Shown here in pieces: positions 23,622-25,180 of a stretch of DNA of 64,000 nucleotides; the stretch's first letter is position 1; the number at the start of each line of letters is the position of its first letter. The notes under the pieces were generated by a model. It searched no databases. It saw only the letters and a program-made list of their open reading frames with translations, and had not been told where the DNA came from. This stretch comes from Spinellus fusiger (Eukaryota; Mucoromycota; Mucoromycetes; Mucorales; Phycomycetaceae): the NCBI GenBank assembly GCA_025094145.1, contig JALLLS010000004.1, positions 682,001-746,000 on the forward strand, in the 5' to 3' direction. The translations under genes were made by a program, and so were the position numbers.

Positions 23622-25180
23622 GCTCTCTTCAAGCAACAATACGCAAAAGCTGTGAAGAAAAAGAACATCACATCAAGCGTCATCGTTTGTGTAAAAATTA
23701 TATATCAACCTCCCAGCAAGGTATGTATAGCCATAATCTAACTATTATTAGATATATTTCTAATCCTTTTTTTTACAGTCGTTATCAGTGGTAAATGAAA
23801 TACTTGTACAGAAAAAAAAAGAGACTTTGTAAGGTTTAAGAAACAGGCCAAACAGTTAACAGACAAGAAAGAAGCCTCAATAGCAAGATGTTCTAGCTGG
23901 GGAACAGAAGACTACAACACATCAAAATCACCGACAAGTACAACCACAACCTCAAGAAACTCAAAAGTAAGATCAACAGCAAACTCCACAAGAAAAACTA
24001 CCTCGCCTGTTCTCGTTGTTTCCAGTATCTTCATTGAAGTAGAAGTTCATAAAAATAGATTTGAAAACATTCCACCGCTATTTGGTTTATAATCAAAAAG
24101 CACTTACCAAAAAAATAGATCTATTTAATACAGTATTTGAGTTGAAAAGACTCGAGATTGACATGTAAGTGAAAAAAAAAGCATACACAAATATACATTA
24201 GACTCTTCACTTACATGAAAAGAAGCTATAGATTGGCTATAGTATGGAGAACTTACAAGATCCAAACAGAACAAAAAAAAACTTGCTTTTTCAAACATCC
24301 TAAGAAGTGATGGATTTACAGCGGATGCGACTATACAAGAAAGTAAATCCAAGAGCAGACGACTACAGCTACAGCTATGATCAAGTAATTGATGCTGAGC
24401 ATATCGGAAAGACAATTGACCAACAAGAGCTTGACCATTTTTCTTTGTATGGTTTCGACCAGGGTCAACACCACGTATTTACTGCTACATGCGGGGAAAC
24501 GGGACAAACACATGGTATCAGAAGGTGTTCAACAAAAGAATATTACACTATGACTGGGTCAGTTCGAATTGCAGAATAAACAACACAAAGAATGAATCAA
24601 GAAGGTTTGACAGACGTCTTTTTAAATATCCCTACAAGCAAAACCGCCTCCATAACCTCATACTTGGGTTATGTAAATTATATTTTCTTACATTTGCAGC
24701 AGATACTAGCCCTCAACAACAATAACACTGCCGAGGCACGTCTTAATTTATATCAAGGCGTACATAGAGCATGTGAAGAAATCGTCAATGTTTTAGTTAA
24801 TGGAGGCAGAAAATACAATAAGCACAAAAGAATAAAAAATAAAGCAAAATAGAAAGAATAAAAAAAAAGACAAAAAGATGGAGATCTTTTTATGGTTGAT
24901 GTTGATAAATTTCGAAAATCGAGAGTAAACATGATTGACCTCTTACCCAATATAAAAAGCTCTTCTAACAGTTCCTCTTATTTTTGTTCTCAAGATCTGC
25001 CACACTTATAACACAAATAACCTCACCGAGGTATTAGTAAATTTCAACAATATCCACGCTTGCCAAAGTTGTGGAATTGTTTGAAACAGAAATATGAATG
25101 CATCAAAGAATATCTATACAATTGCAGAAGAGGGATTAAATGGTCGCCACCGACCAGCTCCATTCTGTAGAAAAGAATAG
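23622..25180 (+). pseudogene. Fanzor (TnpB-like RNA-guided nuclease) pseudogene, copy 1
   Basis: Decayed Fanzor gene. Amino-terminal scraps lie at 23622-24330, with one likely intron (23720-23778) and an RSDGFTAD segment at about 24300 followed by a frameshift. From 24307 the RuvC region reads GFDQGQHHVFTATCG (RuvC-I Asp) then STKEYYTMTGS, then IPTSKTASITSYLGYV and LYQGVHRACEEIVNVL. A 70-nt intron (24925-24994) restores the zinc-finger frame (first pair CHTY, second CQSC; one Cys is lost), then NRNMNASKNIY. Damage: stops at 24574, 24850, 24859 and 25082; deletion of the first half of RuvC-II; RuvC-II Glu changed to Lys (VDKF); RuvC-III Asp changed to Asn. Active family members cut DNA guided by an omega-RNA. 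This copy cannot. Confidence 0.75.

Follow-up and report, generated by a model that had tools for sequence, protein, structure and literature searches.

The window, a 64,000-nucleotide stretch of the Spinellus fusiger genome, held two broken copies of a Fanzor element, one of which (copy 1) had been described in the original prediction as a relic inside a nest of transposons. Fanzor genes are related to those of the CRISPR nucleases. The nest was present, as a mariner-type piece (22238-22933) adjoined copy 1 and a Tc1-like fragment (25300-26163) was inserted in it. The expectation that two copies would be legible in the window also held, with copy 1 at 22932-26264 and a longer one at 52122-54888, and the genome held well over a hundred. 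The features of the locus were as follows; P0003 is the Fanzor1 protein of Mucor flavus (MFLAVUS_008589, 720 aa) and P0001 a protein of Rhizopus microsporus (RMATCC62417_11437).

22238..22933, reverse strand: internally deleted mariner-type element adjoining copy 1, with 55-bp inverted repeats at 22238-22291 and 22879-22933
22932..26264, forward strand: Fanzor element copy 1, left part missing, interrupted, matching dispersed copies
24304..24852, forward strand: RuvC-I exon remnant, alignable with P0003 and P0001 and broken by in-frame stops at 24577-24579 and 24850-24852
24862..24924, forward strand: RuvC-II exon remnant, with VDKF at 24901-24912, where P0003 has E
24925..24994, forward strand: predicted intron, GT..AG, with AG at 24993-24994, in a position common to most aligned copies covering the site
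24995..25180, forward strand: last exon, with zinc ribbon, stop at 25082-25084, RuvC-III as NRNMNA, and stop codon at 25178-25180
25090..25204, no strand assigned: inverted repeat with arms at 25090-25117 and 25177-25204, over the RuvC-III coding region
25300..26163, no strand assigned: Tc1-like transposon fragment inside copy 1, with inverted repeats at 25303-25329 and 26134-26160, absent from other copies
26164..26264, forward strand: right end of copy 1, the region kept as a right end of ca. 106 bp by gene-less ghosts, a candidate guide-RNA scaffold
52120..52123, forward strand: TCTA at the left end of copy 2, a TAM predicted from flank statistics
52122..54888, forward strand: Fanzor element copy 2, with terminal inverted repeats at both ends, no RuvC-I half, and a broken last exon

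Copy 1 matched dispersed copies in four pieces (22932-23464, 23625-24874, 24862-25299, and 26164-26264), and position 26264 was the outer end of its right terminal inverted repeat. The two nearest dispersed copies were 86-88% identical to copy 1 in DNA over ca. 580 bp, and many others were 91-95% identical over ca. 320 bp. Judged by alignment, the resemblance of copy 1 to Fanzor copies far exceeds chance. Around 230-320 bp of other copies, corresponding to the exon before RuvC-II, were missing from copy 1 at 24861|24862.

A single frame from 24304 to 24852 contained GFDQG (RuvC-I), STKEYY, TSKTAS, and NVLVNGG. The full chain of Fanzor motifs that had been proposed for copy 1 was found in that order and place, in the same order as in P0003. 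We took 24925-24994 to be an intron, as its removal joined TSR to ICHTC, lining up with TSKTCNLC of P0003; in an alignment of 36 copies, the GT of this intron was absent from one (L042). The zinc ribbon had lost one cysteine (CHTY), NRNMNA replaced NRDxNA, and a stop preceded the NR motif. Copy 1 had thus lost one zinc-ribbon cysteine and two of its three RuvC catalytic residues, and the disabling changes reported earlier (VDKF and NRNMNA) were real. The possibility that the RuvC-III coding region forms a conserved RNA hairpin was rejected, as the arms of the inverted repeat were perfect over at least 20 bases in 8 of the 36 copies, over 12-19 bases in 10, and over fewer in 18.

The Tc1-like fragment carried a weak helix-turn-helix remnant (25491-25859), whose matches to HTH_20 (E 6e-4) and HTH_SB (E 0.013) fell short of the Pfam cut-offs. 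By eye, the protein ends of the mariner-type element, NPIEQFWS and MNLQIYYKDEQGN, looked like those of a 440-aa DDE_3 transposase at another locus (L039); its 97-aa piece alone matched no Pfam family. At L039 (641-2213), that 440-aa open reading frame (DDE_3, 4.4e-26) lay between 75-bp inverted repeats of 93% identity, beside a Fanzor copy, and its sequence is possibly that of an intact mariner-type transposase. Copy 2 sat within a 15-base inverted repeat (52099-54911), with TTATGTCAAGGCATT on the left and AATGCCTTGACATAA on the right.

Relationship to Fanzor1

When copy 1 was read through, with X at its breaks, it matched P0003 at E 2.85e-31. P0003 contained PF07282, the Cas12f1-like TNB/OrfB zinc-ribbon domain, and matched the solved structure of SpuFz1 (8gkh) at E 2.2e-6, or at 1.9e-7 with a seven-sequence profile. 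The read-through of a related broken copy (L016) found four proteins, including two from R. microsporus and one from M. flavus. P0003 and P0001, respectively 30% and 43% identical to that read-through, were the best sequence relatives. P0003 is a single uninterrupted protein that has every motif, whereas the Spinellus copies are broken, the motif order being common to both; P0001, as listed, stops ahead of RuvC-II. A search with P0003 returned 13 proteins including itself, from Mucor, Parasitella, Pilobolus, Apophysomyces, Benjaminiella, and Helicostylum, all of which belong to the Mucorales, a spread that points to a mucoralean host. Searched directly against solved structures, the L016 read-through gave no more than weak hits to TranC and Cas12m chains (E 0.05-0.07), and P0011, a relative from Parasitella, hit no chain among them.

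Across the 38.1-Mb assembly, PF07282 matches over the Pfam cut-off were found at no fewer than 147 of 150 scored places (457 candidates), two of the 147 passing only with neighbours in frame; the L039 exon scored 30.1 bits. Several places with equal scores lay near each other, often in opposite orientation (C141:37095/52016, C172:96007/97923/109277/111193, and C183:105023/110305), hinting at local inverted duplications or an assembly effect. The window's own zinc ribbons were not among the 150 places listed, and separate Pfam scans of the two RuvC-I pieces of copy 1 gave no family. The assignment of the window copies to Fanzor consequently rests on homology to matching copies and proteins. The catalytic D, E, and D and the C4 zinc ribbon were found across the family, not within one copy: RuvC-I exons had the D, 18 of 29 readable copies had the E, and many last exons had NRDVNA and all four cysteines. 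By sequence comparison, membership of Fanzor1 runs through P0003 to the characterised SpuFz1, and RNA-guided DNA cleavage by a living ancestor is the function that we propose.

Element ends and derivatives

The comparison of 20 loci placed the left end near TACACACC(AGGAG/CAAAG)ATTTTTCTGG. The right end, read from outside, started like the left end (TACACACC) for ca. 15 bases, and TA stood at most of the element ends read. By exact pattern, there were 581 left-type ends (457 + 124) and 378 Fanzor-type right ends. A TA duplication was inferred from the ends themselves, as no clean empty site was found; the left flank of the candidate (L050) ended in a Fanzor fragment at TA, and its right flank did not continue it. 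At that locus (1-70), a MITE adjoined a Fanzor zinc-ribbon exon fragment exactly at its TA, with no continuation of Fanzor on the other side. None of the loci examined held a DDE transposase bounded by Fanzor-element ends, and the transposases at L039 and L049 were rejected as mobilising partners, as they had different inverted repeats of their own. By eye, no 9-bp target duplication was seen in the flanks listed.

Most of the copies found had no RuvC-I half and were non-autonomous deletion derivatives. Internally deleted derivatives retained the Fanzor-type right end. Nine copies without the RuvC-I half (L021, L029, L031, L035, L036, L038, L040, L043, and L048) stopped matching the window at or within three bases of 23464, a common breakpoint that points to one founding deletion for those nine; the match ended earlier in L042 and L047, and there was none in that part in L034 and L039. 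Four ghosts of 281-287 bp (L067-L070) consisted of ca. 185 bp of the left end and ca. 106 bp of the right end, and a further locus (L073) kept ca. 92 bp of the right end.

A chimera was also found, in which a MITE was joined at TA inside the Fanzor gene to its 3' part (window equivalent 24364). The junction, seen in L027, recurred in L061, L064, and L066. Left flanks, read for three of these loci (L027, L060, and L063), were not the same, and the chimera has therefore moved as a unit; all four loci were on contig C1, and the right flank was read for L027 only.

The best explanation of these findings, to which we assign a probability of roughly 85%, is that copy 1 is a broken Fanzor1 copy in a truncated inverted-repeat DNA transposon of a large family, with a history of mobilisation and recutting that would have proceeded as proposed below. 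The family is a decayed one of several hundred related copies.

The flanking dinucleotide and a predicted TAM

Among the matches listed, on the first contigs only, 43 elements had a left end paired with a Fanzor-type right end; TC stood ahead of the left end in 25 of the 43 and ahead of the right end in 3 (p 4.7e-7, the copies being not all independent). Left ends with no detected Fanzor-type right end had TC in 23 of 76 cases, significantly fewer than the 25 of 43 (p 0.0037). Genome-wide, TC stood ahead of 207 of the 581 left-type ends (172/457 + 35/124) and of 48 of the 378 right ends of Fanzor type (p 5.5e-16 for the difference). The background was 7.2%, the share of TA sites in the window preceded by TC; the other left ends exceeded it (p 2.2e-9), and the right ends did so slightly (p 1.4e-4).

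In Spu-1 of Spizellomyces punctatus, CA is conserved before the left repeat in both gene-bearing and ghost elements, and SpuFz1, with 19 full-length genes and a sequenced guide RNA, was shown by experiment to use the TAM CATA (PMC10432273). By our reading, that CA and the first TA make up CATA. By analogy with Spu-1, we predict that the TAM of the Spinellus family is 5'-TCTA. Caution is called for, as TAMs differ within the group; a Parasitella Fanzor1 has a reported TAM of ATN (PMC11423790).

The mechanism that we propose would begin with a TA-targeting transposase that, acting in trans, moved any segment between two TACACACC-type ends. Fanzor, presumably loaded with a transcript of the right end and the adjoining flank (a step with little support from the folds), would then have cut the vacated site where TCTA preceded, and repair would have brought the lost copy back. 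The protein could also have served in trans any element that had a Fanzor-type right end, and such use would explain why many non-coding copies keep the right end and the TC flank. The coding gene would have decayed afterwards. The element flanks likely still record a short DNA signal that the enzyme would have recognised. The fuller proposition, that an extinct Fanzor1 family served hundreds of non-coding ghosts in trans and left in their flanks a fossil record of the TAM 5'-TCTA, is one that we hold tentatively, at just under even odds.

Alternatively, the bias could be a property of the left end: the transposase would favour TCTA on the flank that receives this end, with no part for Fanzor. 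We consider this a serious possibility, at somewhat below even odds. The excess over background at the other left ends (23/76) indicates that the end itself may account for some of the TC bias, and TC was found at some elements having two left-type ends. A cruder split of the ends by nearby PF07282 places also showed no clear difference (TC in 4/7 vs 26/93, and in 6/17 vs 34/83). Against such a left-end preference, TC was about twice as common where a Fanzor-type right end was present, and where the left end was paired with the other type of right end, TC stood at 2 of the 10 left ends and at 2 of the 11 right ends.

The folds were those of the 3' region. A consensus fold of its last 250 columns reached -7.35 kcal/mol against a mean of -1.35 (SD 1.51) for column shuffles, and that of the last 110 bases of 45 right ends reached -1.15 against a shuffle mean of -0.07, a value reached by 2 of 100 shuffles. 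Two-sided changes occurred at 3 of 27 pairs, in 4 cells, and the pairs were mostly invariant or changed on one side. The 3'-region folds were below shuffles but weak, and a guide-RNA fold was not convincingly supported.

Decay of the gene and comparison with known elements

A search for an intact parent of copy 1 had been recommended, and among the matches listed from searches of the assembly with the RuvC-I half and with P0003, no intact Fanzor gene was found. The RuvC-I half matched at least 42 stretches (62 candidates scored), and among those listed, the sole full-length stop-free stretch was the query's own locus (L011), which had a zinc-ribbon stop in its last exon. P0003 matched at least 74 stretches (62 of 468 candidates scored), many of them open singly; among those listed, places covering both the N-terminal and middle parts had stops in one exon or another, and L011, open across the stretches that this search listed, was broken in the last exon. 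On the strength of these matches, an intact gene is likely absent from the assembly.

The lesions of copy 1 were not private. At the RuvC-II position, Glu was replaced by Lys in 11 of the 29 readable copies, and NRNMNA recurred in L027, indicating that the lesions were at least partly inherited. In the alignment of 36 copies, variants appeared shuffled among copies, as by gene conversion or template switching. The original prediction had taken the legible copies as a sign of a recently active Fanzor; the Fanzor family was borne out, but most of the copies found are non-autonomous deletion derivatives, so legible copies alone do not prove a recent active nuclease.

The surviving C-terminal half might instead be functional in its own right, as a shortened Fanzor that binds DNA or RNA and that selection has maintained in the deletion derivatives, an alternative that we consider unlikely. 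Twenty-three copies lacking the RuvC-I half showed, in the last exon, 203 nonsynonymous changes over 136.7 sites and 96 synonymous changes over 37.3 sites (ratio ca. 0.58), with 8 changes to stop, a ratio that would be consistent with selection. However, nine copies with the RuvC-I half gave a similar ratio (ca. 0.71), and variation at third and second codon positions was 0.079 and 0.087 in copies without that half and 0.080 and 0.086 in copies with it. As third positions vary no more than second ones, the trace of selection in the last exon is weak and may be inherited. Several copies also had stops or missing cysteines, and the gene was wholly absent from the four ghosts read. Repeat-induced point mutation or a similar genome defence was rejected as a very improbable driver of the decay: G-to-A accounts for several window lesions, but among the 262 rare changes counted across 32 copies, C-to-T and G-to-A exceeded the reverse transitions per site by a factor of only about two and showed no preference for CpA, an ordinary spectrum with no context bias.

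The Spinellus family, read as a large set of decayed Fanzor1 elements, resembles Spu-1 in being Fanzor1, in its inverted-repeat element, partial copies, and many gene-less ghosts, and in having a dinucleotide on the left and a right-end region kept in ghosts. It differs from Spu-1, as described in the accessible part of that report, in that TC/TCTA is predicted only, the guide RNA is hypothetical, and no intact gene was found (PMC10432273). Fanzor1 elements in Mucor, Rhizopus, and Phycomyces have been known since 2013, and those elements, in the accessible part of that study, were either MuDR-like with 9-bp duplications (as ROr-4 and MCi-4) or unclassified (Bao and Jurka, PMC3627910). In contrast to the MuDR-like elements, most of the ends read in the Spinellus family carried TA, and its listed flanks showed no 9-bp duplication. 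Also described in that study, CMe-1A of Cyanidioschyzon has ca. 150 copies and a 5' part that is a complete other element, as in Spinellus, but is without inverted repeats (PMC3627910). No published description of the Spinellus family was found in the accessible Fanzor literature, and one may still exist. As judged from sequence, it is a new Fanzor1 family with many ghosts, in an order where Fanzor1 was already known.

Our findings show that the pattern of Spu-1 (gene copies, ghosts, and a motif ahead of the left repeat) extends to a Mucorales-like genome. Pieces of Fanzor travel along with short inverted-repeat elements, which could be a route by which guide-bearing ends outlive the nuclease. 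A TAM of TCTA for the Spinellus family is a concrete and cheap prediction. If it is true, the targeting rule of a dead RNA-guided nuclease would be readable from the genome before any experiment.
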